Source: an uncultured Williamsia sp.
GTDB taxonomy: Bacteria > Actinomycetota > Actinomycetes > Mycobacteriales > Mycobacteriaceae
Length of the DNA: 64,000 nucleotides
Assembly: GCF_947494875.1 (NCBI RefSeq)
Contig: NZ_CANLWM010000005.1
Span: 124,001 to 188,000, forward strand
Reading direction: 5' to 3'
The position numbers were made by a program, and so were the translations under genes. The notes below the pieces were generated by a model. The model was not told the DNA's origin, made no database searches, and worked only from the letters and a program-made list of their open reading frames with translations. Shown here piece after piece: positions 20,190-25,518 of this stretch; positions within the stretch are counted from its first letter, which is position 1; each line of letters begins with the position of its first letter.

Positions 20190-20513
20190 ATGAGTGCGGA
20201 GGATCTCGAGAAGTACGAGACCGAGATGGAGCTGTCGCTGTACCGCGAGTACAAGGACGTGGTCGGTCAGTTCACCTACGTGGTCGAGACCGAGCGCCGC
20301 TTCTACCTCGCCAACACCGTCGAGATGGTGCCCCGCAACGCCGACGGCGAGGTCTATTTCGAGGTCCGCATGTCCGACGCCTGGGTGTGGGACATGTACC
20401 GTCCCGCGCGGTTCGTCAAGCAGGTCCGCGTCATCACGTTCAAGGACGTGAACATCGAGGAACTCGAGTCATCCGAACTCAGACTGCCGGAGGACGGGGA
20501 CCTGCCGGGCTGA
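20190..20513 (+). CDS. DUF2469 family protein
   Basis: 107-aa acidic soluble protein of the actinobacterial DUF2469 family (Rv2901c-like), function unknown. It begins MSAEDLEKYETEMELSLYREYKDVVGQF and has a Trp/Tyr-rich core (MSDAWVWDMYRPARF). The acidic C-terminus reads into a convergent MFS gene, overlapping its 3' end by 35 bases. Conserved next to rnhB across mycolic-acid actinobacteria. Confidence 0.88.
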   Translation: MSAEDLEKYETEMELSLYREYKDVVGQFTYVVETERRFYLANTVEMVPRNADGEVYFEVRMSDAWVWDMYRPARFVKQVRVITFKDVNIEELESSELRLPEDGDLPG

Positions 20514-22227
20514 GCGTCCCGGTGGGCGTCCGCCGCAGCGCCAGGCACGCCGCCGCGAGCGCCGCGGCGGTTCCGGCGATGGTCCACAGCGTCGTGGTGA
20601 ACGCGGCCAGGAACGCCCGCGCGGCTGCCTGACGGGCCGCGTCCCGGACCGCGGGTCCCGCCGCGGCCAGGATCTCCGCGCGCGGACCGGATCCGGCGTC
20701 TCGGGTCGAACATCCCGGAGGGGACACCTCGGGTCGTGGGGACGCCAACTGCCGACGCGCGCAGTCGGTGAACGACCCGACGACGAACGGGGCCACCTGG
20801 TTCGGCACGGACGTCGTGCGCAGCGCCGCGGTCAACTCGTCCGACGACTGCGAGGCGGCGGTGGGCGCCGCCGCCGCGAGCTGGGCGAAGAAGAACACCC
20901 CGACCACCGCGAGGCCGACCGACGCGCCGATCTGCTGCACCGTCGGGACCATCCCGGACGCCGAGCCGACGGTCTGCTCGGTGGTGCCCGAGACGATCGT
21001 CGCCTGCAACGGTGCGACGAACAGGCCCACTCCCACGCCCCCGAGCACCAGCGCCGGGATCAGCGGCGGCAGGTCGAGCGCGCCGGACGACGGATCGAGA
21101 AGGGCGGCCGTCCAGGCGACGGAGACGGCGAACACGGCCATCCCCAGCGCGAGGGTGCGCGCACCCAGGCGTGGCACGATCAGCGACGACCCCACCGACC
21201 CGACGGCGGCGCCGAGCGCGAACGGCAGCGTGATGAGGCCTGTCCGCAGTGCCGAATAGCCGAGACCGAACTGCGCGGTCACGGACATCGCGAAGAAGAA
21301 CGCGCCGAACACGCCGAAGAACGCGATCGACAGGACGCACCCGACGGCGAAGGCACGGCTGCGGAACAGGTCGACCCGCAGGAGCGGCTCACCGCCACGC
21401 CCCAGCAGCGCGCGCTCGTGGACCACGAACGCCACCAGCAAGATCACCGCGGCGCCCATCGACGCCCACGTCCATGCCGGCCAGCCCTTCTCGCGGCCGA
21501 CGGCGAGGGGATAGATGAGGGCGAACAAACCGGCCGCCGACAACGCCACCCCGCGTAGGTCGAGGGTGACGTCGCGGGCCGCGCGCATCACCGGCAGGCA
21601 CCGCCACGCGACGACGCACGCGATGAGCCCGAAGGGCAGGTTGACCAGGAAGATGGCGCGCCACCCGAGACCGGCGACGTCGGCCGAGATGAGCGCACCG
21701 CCGACGATCGGCCCGCAGATCGCCGCGATGCCCGCGGTGGCGCCGTACACGCCGAACACCAGCGGGTGCCGTGTCCGCGGGAACATGGTCGCGATCACCG
21801 CGATCGTCTGCGCCGACGCGCACGCCGCGCTCACCCCCTGCACGCCGCGCAGCACGATGAGTTCCGCGGGCCCCGTGGCCGTCCCGCAGAGCACCGAGGC
21901 CAGGGTGAACGCTGCCAGGGCCGCGACGAACATGCGGTGTCGACCGACGCGCTCACCGAGACGTGACCCCGCCATCAGGGTGCAGGCGAAGGCCAGGGTG
22001 TAGACGGTGAGCACCAACAGCTGGTCGGACGACGTCGCCCCGAGGTCACGGGCCAGGTCGGGCAGGGCGATGTTGACGATGGTGGTGTCGACCATCTGCA
22101 TGAACACCGCGATGAGACACGCCGCGAACGCTGCCCACGCCGCCGCCGGCCGCGGGTGCGCCGTCACGGCATCCGGGTGAGCGAGCGACGACGGGTCGGG
22201 TGCCGCGCGTGTCGGCGAGTCCGCCAC
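20479..22227 (-). CDS. MFS transporter, DHA2 (EmrB/QacA) type
   Basis: Drug:H+ antiporter-like exporter, 582 aa, about 14 transmembrane helices. The family motif DTTIVNIALPDLARDLGAT follows the first helix; GSRLGERVGRHRMF is motif A and LGWRAIFLVNLPFGL is the usual loop signature. GTG 22227 lies 5 bases after the PapA-like gene stop, so the two form one operon. An extended periplasmic loop (~460-530) precedes the last helix. Substrate unknown; by context a lipid or glycolipid is more likely than a drug (inference). This gene and the next two are absent from the corresponding M. tuberculosis interval as I recall it. Confidence 0.88.
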   Translation of the reverse strand: MADSPTRAAPDPSSLAHPDAVTAHPRPAAAWAAFAACLIAVFMQMVDTTIVNIALPDLARDLGATSSDQLLVLTVYTLAFACTLMAGSRLGERVGRHRMFVAALAAFTLASVLCGTATGPAELIVLRGVQGVSAACASAQTIAVIATMFPRTRHPLVFGVYGATAGIAAICGPIVGGALISADVAGLGWRAIFLVNLPFGLIACVVAWRCLPVMRAARDVTLDLRGVALSAAGLFALIYPLAVGREKGWPAWTWASMGAAVILLVAFVVHERALLGRGGEPLLRVDLFRSRAFAVGCVLSIAFFGVFGAFFFAMSVTAQFGLGYSALRTGLITLPFALGAAVGSVGSSLIVPRLGARTLALGMAVFAVSVAWTAALLDPSSGALDLPPLIPALVLGGVGVGLFVAPLQATIVSGTTEQTVGSASGMVPTVQQIGASVGLAVVGVFFFAQLAAAAPTAASQSSDELTAALRTTSVPNQVAPFVVGSFTDCARRQLASPRPEVSPPGCSTRDAGSGPRAEILAAAGPAVRDAARQAAARAFLAAFTTTLWTIAGTAAALAAACLALRRTPTGTLSPAGPRPPAV

Positions 22228-22232
22228 GTCGG

Positions 22233-23657
22233 TCAGCGCGTCAGCGAGGCCAACGACGGGGAGTGGTCACCGGCGGTGGCGACGGACCGGAACATGTCCG
22301 AGAACCGCGCGACGTAGTGATCGATCGACTCGGCCGCGGTGGCGGTGTCCGGGTAGAGCAGCGTCATGACGGTGTAGTCCGGGAATCGGTTCACCCACAG
22401 GTACACCTCCTCCGACGATCCGCGGTTGCCGAACACGCCGCCGTTGATGTGGTCGAACATCTGCGCGCCGGGGAGCTTCCGGACGTCGATGAAGCTCACC
22501 ATCGGCACGACCCAGCCGTCGGGGACGACGATGCCCGAGTCCTCGGGGATCAACTCGACCACCCGGTGCAGCGACACCTCCGACAGCGACTTCCCGGCGT
22601 CGAACGACTGTTGGGTCTGACCGACCAGGGATGCGAAGGTGCTGTCGTCGGCGAAGTCGGTCGTCACCGGGATGAGATTCGTGAACCACCCGACGGAGTT
22701 GAACTCTTCCGGCGTGGAGCGGGTGTTCTTCGGCGTGAACCCGAGGTACCGCGAGGCGCCGGTGATCTCGTGCGCCACCAACCCGGCGACCGTCAGGACG
22801 CCGGCGGTGAACCCGGCACCGTTGGCCTTGCAGGCGGCGTCGAAGCGGTCGGCGCCCGCACCGTCGAGGAGCTCGACGGTGAGGATGCGGCTGCGGGTGT
22901 AGCCGTCCTCGGCGATGCCGAGATCGAGCGGGAAGCGGGGGAGTCGCCCGCCGTTGGCCGACAGCAGGGACAACCAGCGGGCGACCCGCTCGTCGGCCAG
23001 GTCGAGTTCCGCACCGGCGACGCGTTCACGAACGCAGTAGTCGAGATAGCTGCCGGCCGCGGCCAGGGCGGGTGCGGAGTCGGAGATGGCGCTGCCGTAC
23101 AGACCGATCAGGTCGACACAGGACAGCGCCTGGGAGACACCGTCGGAGTTGAGGTGGTCGACCGCGAAGTACACGGTGAAGTTGTCGTCGTGCTCGATCA
23201 CGCCGACGGTGAAGCAATCCCAGTGGAACGGGCCCGGCGTCGTCTCCTGGACATGGGCCAGGATCGACGCGCTGTCGGCGAAATCACCGTGGTCGGTCGG
23301 GGCGAACTCGATGGCCTCCACATCCATCACGTGGCGGGTCACGGAGTCGTGGTCGTCGATCGAGAACCAGCTGCGGAACGTGTCGTGGCGTCGGAGGAAG
23401 CCGTTGACGGTCCGGGTCATCGCGTCGACGTCCAGCCGACCACCGATGTCGAAGGAGATGAGGCAGAGTCGGGAGAAGCGGAAGCCCGCGTTCTCGTTGC
23501 GCCGGGCGGCGCGCAGATAGGACTGCTGCTGGTACGACGGCGGCGCGGGGCTCGTCGGTGCCGCCGCGGCCGCGTCGATCGCGGCGGGTGTGGCGTGCCA
23601 CGTCGTGACGCGGCCCGGCGCCGGTGTCCACTCGTCGATCAGTCCGAAGTTGATCAC
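22233..23657 (-). CDS. PapA-like acyltransferase (condensation-domain fold)
   Basis: 474 aa. The N-terminus (INFGLIDEWTPAPGRVTTW, then PPSYQQQSYLRAARRNENAG, LRRHDTFRSWFSIDD) resembles mycobacterial PapA1/PapA2, which acylate trehalose lipids. The active-site motif is DHLNSDG (His168, Asp172), a variant of HHxxxDG with Asp in place of the first His. The start is GTG 23657, preceded by GGAGGGG at 7 bases spacing; the 27-residue longer frame is rejected. It heads an operon with the MFS exporter and is divergent from a mycolyltransferase. Acceptor and acyl donor unknown; polyketide or fatty acyl-CoA to a sugar is the natural hypothesis. Confidence 0.85.
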   Translation of the reverse strand: MINFGLIDEWTPAPGRVTTWHATPAAIDAAAAAPTSPAPPSYQQQSYLRAARRNENAGFRFSRLCLISFDIGGRLDVDAMTRTVNGFLRRHDTFRSWFSIDDHDSVTRHVMDVEAIEFAPTDHGDFADSASILAHVQETTPGPFHWDCFTVGVIEHDDNFTVYFAVDHLNSDGVSQALSCVDLIGLYGSAISDSAPALAAAGSYLDYCVRERVAGAELDLADERVARWLSLLSANGGRLPRFPLDLGIAEDGYTRSRILTVELLDGAGADRFDAACKANGAGFTAGVLTVAGLVAHEITGASRYLGFTPKNTRSTPEEFNSVGWFTNLIPVTTDFADDSTFASLVGQTQQSFDAGKSLSEVSLHRVVELIPEDSGIVVPDGWVVPMVSFIDVRKLPGAQMFDHINGGVFGNRGSSEEVYLWVNRFPDYTVMTLLYPDTATAAESIDHYVARFSDMFRSVATAGDHSPSLASLTR

Positions 23658-24026
23658 GGTCCATCCCCTCCGACGCAGGGTTCCCCGCGCCTCTCCCCGG
23701 CATCGGCCTCGCCACCTGGCGGGTCGGGTGTGCATCACGGCGTGTGCCGCCGACCCTCCCAGCCGATAGGGACAAAACGGCGAGACCTACTGTGTCGCAA
23801 CAGGTGTTGAGGCGTGACCGCCCCCACACCTACGGGACGGTAACTCGGACACGTGAGCCCGGGCAACCAGCGAGCACCCTGCCACAAGCCGTGCTGTGAC
23901 CTGCACAGTGCACACTGTGACCTGTATTACCGTCGGGTAGGGTCTGCTCCGCATCGCGGGCCTCGAGCGCCCGACGCGGCGCCGGAGTCCGTGTCACACC
24001 GAGAACTGCCGGCGAGTGACGAGGGG
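23658..24026. promoter_or_regulatory. Divergent intergenic region with operator-like repeats
   Basis: 369 bases without a gene, containing both promoters. A perfect inverted repeat CACAGTG-CA-CACTGTG lies at 23904-23919. It is flanked by direct repeats CTGTGACCTG at 23894-23903 and 23915-23924, 21 bases apart (two helical turns). TAGGGT at 23938-23943 is a plausible -10 for the rightward mycolyltransferase gene. A repressor binding here could control both directions. I recognise no known regulator's consensus. Confidence 0.6.
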
Positions 24027-25049
24027 ATGGGCGGGGTGGGTCGACGCACTGCGAGGCGACGTGTCGTGACGGTCGTCGTCGCGGCCGTGGCGCTGATGCT
24101 GATCGGGACGATCGCGGGGATCGCACCCGCGTCGGCCCAGCAGGCTGCCGCCATCGCGTCCGAGAAGCCCGGGGTGCGCGGGACGCTCGCGCTGACGGTG
24201 CAGTCGCCTGCGATGCGCGCGGCGATGCGCGTCGACGTGATCCCGCCGCGGGACCCGTCCGCGCCGCATCCGACCGTCTACCTCCTCAACGGGGCACAGG
24301 GCGGTCTCAACGGCAGCAGTTGGCTCGACCAGACCGACGTCGTCGACTTCTTCGCCGACAAGAACGCGACCGTGGTGATCCCCGTGGGCGGGCAGGCGAG
24401 CTATTTCGCCGACTGGCGTGCCGACGACCCCGTGCTGGGTCACCAGAAGTGGGCGACGTTCCTCACGAAGGAACTCTCGCCGCTGATGGACGCGCGGTTC
24501 GGGAGCGACGGCCGCAACGCCCTGGCGGGGATCTCGATGGCGGGGACGTCGGTGCTCCAGCTGGCGATCGAGGCGCCGGGCCTCTATCAGGCGGTCGGGT
24601 CGTACAGCGGGTGTGCGCAGACGTCCGATCTCGTCGGCCAGGCGTACGTCCGTCTCACCGTCGCCCGCGGCGGCGGCAACGCCGACAACATGTACGGACC
24701 CGTCGACGATCCGGCATGGGTGCGCAACGACCCCTACGTGAACGCGGAGAAACTGCGCGGCACGGCCCTGTACATCTCGGCGTCGACCGGTGCGCCCGGC
24801 CCCTACGACCGCATCGACGGTCCCGGGATCGACGGCAACGTCGCGGAACTGGTGTCGCGGATCGGGGTCGGCGCGGTCATCGAGAGTTCGGTACGGCGGT
24901 GCACGGTCGCGCTGCAGGCGAAGCTCGAACGTCTCCGCATCCCGGCGACGTTCTCGCTGCCACCGGCCGGGACCCACAGCTGGCCCTACTGGCAGGACAG
25001 CCTGCACCGGTCGTGGCCGCTGTTCGCCCGTGCGCTCGGGATGCCCTGA
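24027..25049 (+). CDS. Secreted mycolyltransferase (antigen 85/Cmt family)
   Basis: Esterase-fold enzyme that transfers mycolates between trehalose lipids and the arabinogalactan in the cell envelope; 340 aa. Basic residues and a hydrophobic core (~10-32) end in PASA|QQ, a signal peptide. Family text: YLLNGAQGGLNGSSW, VDFFADKNATVVIPVGGQAS, WATFLTKELSPLMD, YSGCAQTSD. Nucleophile Ser170 in GISMAGTS and His317 in THSWPYW are present. The motif reads GxSMAG rather than the usual GxSMGG. Start ATG 24027 abuts GAGGGG; GTG 24036 is an alternative with better spacing. Divergent from the PapA-MFS operon. Good evidence that the organism makes mycolic acids. Confidence 0.93.
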   Translation: MGGVGRRTARRRVVTVVVAAVALMLIGTIAGIAPASAQQAAAIASEKPGVRGTLALTVQSPAMRAAMRVDVIPPRDPSAPHPTVYLLNGAQGGLNGSSWLDQTDVVDFFADKNATVVIPVGGQASYFADWRADDPVLGHQKWATFLTKELSPLMDARFGSDGRNALAGISMAGTSVLQLAIEAPGLYQAVGSYSGCAQTSDLVGQAYVRLTVARGGGNADNMYGPVDDPAWVRNDPYVNAEKLRGTALYISASTGAPGPYDRIDGPGIDGNVAELVSRIGVGAVIESSVRRCTVALQAKLERLRIPATFSLPPAGTHSWPYWQDSLHRSWPLFARALGMP

Positions 25050-25140
25050 CGCTCCCCAGTTACGCCCGCCTCCACAGAGATCGGGGTCGCGTGCCGTCGT
25101 CGGGCCCACCGCGACGGTCCCGGCCCCCAGAGTGGCCGAC

Positions 25141-25518
25141 GTGGAGGACAGCGCGCGGCCACCGAGCCGACAACTGATCGGACGCCGGGGCGAGGACGCC
25201 GCGGCGGATCACCTGCGGCACCAGGGGTACTCGGTGCTGGAGCGGAACTGGCGGTGCCGGTGGGGCGAGCTCGACATCATCGCCTGCGACGGGTCGACCC
25301 TCGTCGTGGTCGAGGTGAAGACCCGCACCGGTGACCGCTTCGGCACGCCGGCCGAGGCGGTGACCCCGGCCAAGTACCGGAGGTTGCGTCGGCTGGCGGG
25401 CCTGTGGCTCGACGAGCAGTCGCGAGGCTTCGCGGCCGTCCGGTTCGACGTCGTCGCGGTCCTGTTGGACCTGCGCACCGACGCGCTCGCGCTGACCCAC
25501 ATCCGGGGCATCTCGTGA
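25141..25518 (+). CDS. yraN: YraN family (UPF0102) endonuclease-like protein
   Basis: 125-aa protein of the restriction-endonuclease-like fold. Motif residues: GRRGEDAAADHL, then the catalytic-type core WGELDIIACDG and VVEVKTRTG (E..D..ExK pattern). Function unresolved. GTG 25141 or GTG 25132 could be used; neither has a clear Shine-Dalgarno. Its stop overlaps the yifB GTG by 4 bases, giving a yraN-yifB-dprA operon as in M. tuberculosis (Rv2898c-Rv2896c). Confidence 0.9.
   Translation: MEDSARPPSRQLIGRRGEDAAADHLRHQGYSVLERNWRCRWGELDIIACDGSTLVVVEVKTRTGDRFGTPAEAVTPAKYRRLRRLAGLWLDEQSRGFAAVRFDVVAVLLDLRTDALALTHIRGIS

Follow-up and report, generated by a model that had tools for sequence, protein, structure and literature searches.

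On the basis of protein families, gene order and conservation in relatives, three adjoining genes in a 64,000-nucleotide stretch of DNA from an uncultured Williamsia sp. (contig NZ_CANLWM010000005.1, positions 124,001 to 188,000; hereafter the window) are understood as a reduced member of a conserved module. In this module, a PapA-type acyltransferase, a major facilitator superfamily (MFS) transporter and a surface acyltransferase would together serve to make and export an acylated anionic glucoside, proposed here to be glucosylglycerate, without a polyketide synthase (PKS) or an MmpL pump. We regard the proposal, taken as a whole, as evenly poised between right and wrong, and its parts differ in strength. 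The module architecture, that of a unit for making and exporting a glycolipid, appears well supported; glucosylglycerate as the head group is what we infer from a recurrent fourth gene, and for the window's own copy that assignment is uncertain. The fuller form of the module reads GpgS-mycolyltransferase followed divergently by PapA-MFS, where GpgS denotes a paralogue of glucosyl-3-phosphoglycerate synthase, and a LIP-family lipase or a GT-C glycosyltransferase is added in some lineages. Families, motifs, gene order, conservation and the separate branching of GpgS are read directly from the sequences, whereas we predict the head group, the sequence of the steps and all enzymatic activities.

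The acyltransferase gene lies at 22233-23657 on the minus strand. Its open reading frame was listed as 22233-23738, and we place the likely start at the GTG at 23657 because a conserved M-[IV]-x-[FY]-G of 13 aligned proteins begins there. The product contains a condensation domain (Pfam PF00668) and matches PapA2 (PDB 6aef), its closest solved relative, over residues 7-458, near full length, at E 3e-93. The HX3DG motif is intact (H168, D172, G173), with H168 and D172 invariant and G173 nearly invariant among 13 aligned PapA proteins (L044, which has a stop codon within its range, was excluded). Motif and full-length similarity together place the protein among the PapA or condensation-type acyltransferases. 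The zinc site of PapA2 (C19, H21, H124, H135) is not retained according to a by-eye mapping: the window protein has T19 for C19, position 21 is variable in the clade, and the remaining two histidines align.

Separated from papA by 5 bp, the gene of the proposed exporter (20479-22227, minus strand) encodes a DHA2-like MFS protein in the broad sense, as indicated by a match to Pfam MFS_1 (E 2.7e-42) and 14 hydrophobic segments in a simple hydropathy scan. Its best NCBIfam family, EmrB (TIGR00711), scores 219.2 bits, under the curated cut-off of 230.2, and the protein is not classed as EmrB-type. The nearest solved relative by sequence is EfpA (E 3e-47), and the putative triacylglyceride transporter 8pnl matches at E 5e-22. 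Hydrophobic segments 13 and 14 are joined by a loop of about 75 residues that includes a cysteine pair. A two-cysteine loop at this place is found in the aligned Williamsia and Gordonia transporters; it is shorter in two Nocardia proteins and absent from three proteins of genus g6.

The third gene, on the plus strand at 24027-25049 (listed as 23853-25049, with the likely start at the ATG at 24027 and a signal-peptide-like stretch behind it), encodes a protein of the Esterase family (Pfam PF00756) whose best solved relative is Cmt1 (E 3e-71), with Ag85A at E 5e-32. It has a GISMAG serine motif and a GTHSW histidine motif; the Ser and His, which we take to be catalytic, are kept in 18/18 aligned proteins. 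Signal-peptide-like start, motifs and family similarity suggest a secreted Ag85/Cmt-type mycolyltransferase. The divergent promoter region between this gene and papA (23658-24026, 369 bp between the likely starts) contains a candidate operator, the palindrome CAACAggTGTTG (23798-23809). The pattern CAACANNTGTTG recurs exactly in 5/38 other divergent regions and with at most one mismatch in 7/38, all of them Williamsia or Williamsia-like, and the 14-mer form CAACAGSTGTTGNG has a single occurrence in the whole genome. An operator common to all genera was not found, the palindrome being restricted to some Williamsia-type loci. No PKS gene adjoins the window papA (the largest gene called between 10 and 35 kb of the window has 754 residues), nor does an MmpL gene, the neighbours being the MFS gene and core genes.

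Scanning named genomes gave 50 loci, from which the distant L101 and L102 (22-24% identity) were removed before counting. The remaining 48 include two second Williamsia copies that lie outside the module (L055 and L056) as well as loci cut by contig ends, all scored as misses. An MFS gene stands directly behind papA in 33/48, a divergent mycolyltransferase gene is present in 42/48, and GpgS is encoded within 6 kb in 30/48. The respective numbers are 11, 12 and 2 for the 14 Williamsia loci (one labelled Kitasatospora, two representing the second papA outside the module), 15, 14 and 12 for the 15 Gordonia loci, and 7, 16 and 16 for the 19 Nocardia loci. All 10 loci fetched from g6, of whose genomes 13 were matched, read GpgS-mycolyltransferase // PapA-MFS-LIP lipase (GC content about 65% in one of them). 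At no GpgS-positive locus was a gene of at least 900 residues called. The window locus shares the common layout, PapA-MFS with a divergent secreted enzyme, and its PapA belongs to the module clade. Chance adjacency of the three genes is ruled out by this conservation.

The triad is inserted between a plus-strand core gene that we take to be DUF2469 (20190-20513), whose 3' end overlaps that of the MFS gene by 35 bp, and another that is presumably yraN (about 25117-25518, plus strand, approximate start). It occupies the identical site in six of seven other genomes of the genus and in two of sister genera (G017, G023). In G003, the sole one of eight genus genomes without a module-type PapA, the site is empty, the DUF2469 and yraN matches being about 186 bp apart. 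The linkage has survived relocation, since the Gordonia loci sit further along the same conserved block, past xerC and adjoining an AA_kinase-family gene, and the Nocardia loci sit elsewhere. It has also been kept through rearrangement, because gene order varies between lineages: GpgS is found behind the mycolyltransferase in Gordonia and g6, behind PapA and a transporter or GT-C protein in Nocardia, and behind LIP in G037, a genome from another family. A PMT_2/GT-C glycosyltransferase gene lies downstream of papA in 17/19 Nocardia loci, 15 of the 17 also having GpgS; its role as a substitute for MFS was ruled out, both being present in L077, L079, L088, L090 and L091. The first-pass annotation of the window had described the minus-strand pair with its 5-base spacing, the 369-base divergence and the secreted mycolyltransferase, all of which is confirmed; its suggested insertion into a core gene block is borne out by the empty site in G003; and the co-occurrence of the triad in relatives, on which it had staked its interpretation, holds in Williamsia, Gordonia and Nocardia at the frequencies given above.

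Variants of the locus were also seen. Tandem PapA-MFS duplication in W. muralis (L034, L061, L062) flanks the mycolyltransferase gene on both sides, and W. soli (L060) has a partial second pair, matching at 29% over 76% of PapA and 43% over 42% of MFS. The locus L063, titled Kitasatospora arboriphila NRRL B-24581, is of Williamsia type and very near W. muralis in the PapA tree, hence probably mislabelled or contaminated.

Clustering of neighbouring genes brought out a recurrent glycosyltransferase, the GpgS paralogue. Six module copies (from Nocardia, Gordonia, g6 and G037) score 395-424 bits with NCBIfam NF010496 (cut-off 262); the W. maris copy is barely at the cut-off (262.5 bits) and the G. 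polyisoprenivorans copy is under it (235.3), and even the divergent W. maris copy matches a PDB GpgS at E 7e-69. The mycolyltransferase stop overlaps the likely GpgS start (ATGA or GTGA) in 3/3 loci inspected by eye, overlaps that we read as probable signs of an operon. At least two GpgS copies occur in 15 of 20 searched genomes, and the five single-copy genomes are among those without GpgS at the locus. N. takedensis has two copies although its papA contig (L092) ends early; its copy L139 was classed as module GpgS by sequence, that contig ending before the expected GpgS position. In a tree, one branch (support 96/80) separates 33 module copies from 38 other copies, and the split is retained with 44 module rows (Shimodaira-Hasegawa-like approximate likelihood-ratio test, SH-aLRT, 90); duplicate rows L108 and L138 were left out. 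The trees are midpoint-rooted for drawing and contain long branches that meet, which makes one origin of the module GpgS likely rather than certain. Five active-site-motif columns, whose roles we assume, are intact in 38/44 module rows and 38/38 other rows, one of the six failing rows repeating a genome. A Fisher test of second GpgS against module-type PapA in 61 genomes gave 4/11 versus 1/50 (p 0.003), a weak result, the genomes being related. In Gordonia sp. ABSL11-1, the module GpgS (L068:7654-8765) is split into two overlapping match pieces, as if frameshifted.

The locus of G037, MFS-PapA // LIP-GpgS, has a LIP-family lipase in the mycolyltransferase position. This genome gave no Pks13 match above the curated cut-off, and its matches to the mycolyltransferase number just two, both weak (32% identity). 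Because the lipase takes that position in a genome without a Pks13 match, the core of the module seems to comprise GpgS, PapA, MFS and a secreted hydrolase of some kind that transfers acyl groups, rather than mycolate as such, and the surface enzyme is, as judged from gene content, exchangeable.

In the reaction sequence that we propose, GpgS and a phosphatase encoded elsewhere would supply glucosylglycerate, an anionic alpha-glucoside, whose hydroxyls the cytoplasmic PapA would esterify from acyl-CoA via the histidine of HX3DG. The MFS protein would then move the acyl-glucosylglycerate across the inner membrane, in the role that MmpL has for mycobacterial trehalose lipids, and the secreted mycolyltransferase (or the LIP lipase) would act at the surface to add, move or exchange acyl or mycoloyl groups. 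Glucosylglycerate is favoured over trehalose because the module contains a dedicated GpgS paralogue. The trehalose acceptor of the first-pass annotation is on that argument demoted to a rival, and the self-contained three-gene module that it had envisaged must be revised, relatives having the GpgS paralogue as a fourth gene that is absent from the window locus. Its idea of an MFS pump in place of MmpL and a mycolyltransferase in place of Chp fits in that the MFS gene is tied to papA and no PKS-size gene occurs at the GpgS-type loci, but the lipase of G037 indicates a surface enzyme open to exchange. Further support for the head group comes from a glucosylglycerate-headed glycolipid that PMC2581804 records for Nocardia otitidis-caviarum, and from PapA2, which according to PMC6996325 acts on trehalose-2-sulfate, an anionic alpha-glucoside as well. 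The literature searched, largely without subscription papers, yielded neither a gene link for the N. otitidiscaviarum glycolipid nor a description of a PapA-MFS-mycolyltransferase(-GpgS) module. To our knowledge, the Nocardia lipid is known solely from chemistry; Pommier and Michel reportedly identified it in 1981, in N. caviae, as 2',3'-di-O-acyl-glucosyl-glyceric acid.

Several observations weigh against this assignment. The window locus is without a GpgS paralogue, and the window genome has a single GpgS, beside folP- and fadD-like genes (by eye); the housekeeping enzyme must therefore supply the substrate, or the substrate has changed. By its gene content, the window locus would be a cut-down version of a module with four or five genes. 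GpgS is kept in 2/14 Williamsia or Williamsia-like loci (two of the 14 are second papA copies outside the module). Motif residues of the module GpgS are lost in the W. maris group (three genomes), G. polyisoprenivorans and G. namibiensis, and the gene is absent from the loci of Gordonia 'Campus' and G. lacunae, while PapA-MFS persists in each case. Because the pair outlasts the loss or decay of GpgS, PapA may not need glucosylglycerate everywhere. No phosphatase gene was recognised within the module, 12/19 Nocardia loci (some cut by contig ends) have no adjacent MFS gene, and G051, which is without module-type PapA, likewise has two GpgS copies. N. otitidiscaviarum lies outside the named-locus set, and the known PapA relatives acylate trehalose.

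A rival explanation has trehalose as the acceptor, with PapA making acyl-trehaloses similar to diacyltrehalose (DAT) or succinoyl trehalose lipids, the MFS protein exporting them, the mycolyltransferase finishing them and GpgS serving something else; we consider it possible but rather doubtful. Trehalose is in keeping with the action of Ag85-type enzymes on trehalose mycolates, with PapA2 as the nearest solved relative of the window PapA and with the absence of GpgS from the window locus. The same can be said of TlsA, reported in PMC8396431 to be key in acylating trehalose for the succinoyl trehalose lipids of Rhodococcus sp. SD-74 and to share about 30% similarity with four PapA proteins from strain I2R. 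That similarity resembles the level between the window PapA and its own paralogues, and the trehalose reading would gain if TlsA belonged to the window PapA clade. That reading leaves unexplained why a second GpgS persists, inside the operon or overlapping it, in Gordonia, Nocardia, g6 and G037. Moreover, two of four acceptor-contact positions of PapA2 differ in the window protein, where P171 is replaced by G173 (nearly invariant) and T307 by P309 (invariant), as mapped by eye onto contacts derived from docking in PMC6996325.

Two further explanations would dissolve the unit. The transporter gene might be an ordinary multidrug efflux gene whose position next to papA reflects chance or common regulation, given that EmrB-like drug exporters are its best-matching families and that an efflux regulator could bind the palindrome. 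We judge this unlikely, for the adjacency holds in Williamsia, Gordonia and Nocardia as well as in g6 and G037, despite rearrangements, and in the tandem PapA-MFS duplications of W. muralis, and the solved relatives include the putative triacylglyceride transporter, albeit ranked below EfpA, EmrB and an antiseptic-resistance pump. Somewhat more improbable still is that PapA and GpgS serve an intracellular molecule of the methylglucose polysaccharide kind, PapA acylating its glucosylglycerate reducing end and the MFS protein and mycolyltransferase being encoded by unrelated neighbours. Methylglucose polysaccharide does bear acyl groups. GpgS is, according to PMC2581804, a key enzyme of methylglucose lipopolysaccharide synthesis, but the most constant partners of papA are the genes for the MFS protein (33/48) and the secreted enzyme (42/48), GpgS overlaps the latter in the three inspected loci, and the five PKS-linked papA loci of Nocardia, described below, have an MFS gene nearby too.

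For the acylated glucosylglycerate module, a broader proposal can be made, with confidence a little short of even: that acyl- (possibly mycoloyl-) glucosylglycerate lipids are widespread in the envelopes of Nocardia, Gordonia, Williamsia and their kin, with PapA making the surface lipid, MFS rather than MmpL carrying it, and the window's branch doing so without a dedicated GpgS. In its other roles, glucosylglycerate serves as a compatible solute and primes methylglucose polysaccharides. If true, the proposal offers candidate genes for a Nocardia glycolipid known chemically, means that mycolate-type bacteria put glucosylglycerate to a second use, and gives PapA products an export route through MFS proteins instead of MmpL. 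An acidic glycolipid at the surface of Gordonia, Williamsia and many Nocardia is a further prediction.

The window PapA and its W. serinedens counterpart share 92% identity. PapA matches at E 1e-110 or better were found in 61/300 sampled genomes of the family (6/31 genera) and in 80/118 sampled Nocardia genomes, both counts taking in a second, PKS-linked class of Nocardia PapA. At all five loci of this class that were fetched (L185-L189), a gene of 1924-2267 residues lies close by, the fetched stretch includes an MFS gene and GpgS is absent; the one large gene that was scanned encodes a type I PKS. PapA and MFS accordingly accompany either a GpgS or a PKS. A second papA in the W. maris group (L035, L036 and L037, from G001, G007 and G005, respectively; L055, L056) encodes a protein 63-64% identical to the window PapA. 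It has no MFS or mycolyltransferase match nearby; its neighbours, as identified at L035, are genes for an FAD/BBE oxidase and for an Acyl_transf_3 protein, with an Abhydrolase_8 gene nearby in 2/3 genomes. At L048 and L049 (G000:C10:1-40000), seven papA-like genes are arrayed with two mycolyltransferase genes, surrounded by acyl-CoA carboxylase-like genes (by eye), and a three-gene array with common neighbours occurs in G029. Distant PapA-like condensation proteins (24-29% identity) are encoded on rhizobial plasmids of Sinorhizobium and Cupriavidus taiwanensis (plasmid records H2-H6, H8, H10).

Regarding known systems, the mycobacterial loci for sulfolipid, DAT and trehalose polyphleates (TPP) are laid out as PapA-Pks-MmpL-Chp/PE. 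Like them, the module combines within a single locus a PapA, a membrane exporter of its own and an acyltransferase-type enzyme outside the cytoplasm, but it differs in its MFS exporter, in the Ag85/Cmt-type enzyme that takes the place of Chp, in the GpgS paralogue and in having no gene of at least 900 residues at GpgS-positive loci. Another layout is seen in G035, where PapA is encoded beside genes of 2095 and 2210 residues and, at one locus, a 992-residue MmpL-like gene (by eye). In Rhodococcus sp. SD-74, TlsA acts in trehalose lipid synthesis as an acyl-CoA transferase and, according to PMC8396431, has PapA-like relatives. A precedent for lipid export by an MFS protein exists in Rv1410, which acts with LprG on triacylglycerides (PMC10576003). 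Export by the window MFS protein is proposed in analogy; its gene, unlike the Rv1410-LprG pair, neighbours papA and the DUF2469 gene rather than a lipoprotein gene, and the extended loop lies between segments 13 and 14, whereas the Rv1410-LprG system has TM11/12 extensions. The module GpgS copies resemble the enzyme of methylglucose lipopolysaccharide synthesis in passing the curated GpgS model in motif-keeping lineages, yet they branch apart from the other GpgS copies and lie with genes for acyl transfer and export. The glycolipid of N. otitidiscaviarum (N. caviae), as given in PMC2581804, has the same head group as is predicted here for the product of the module.

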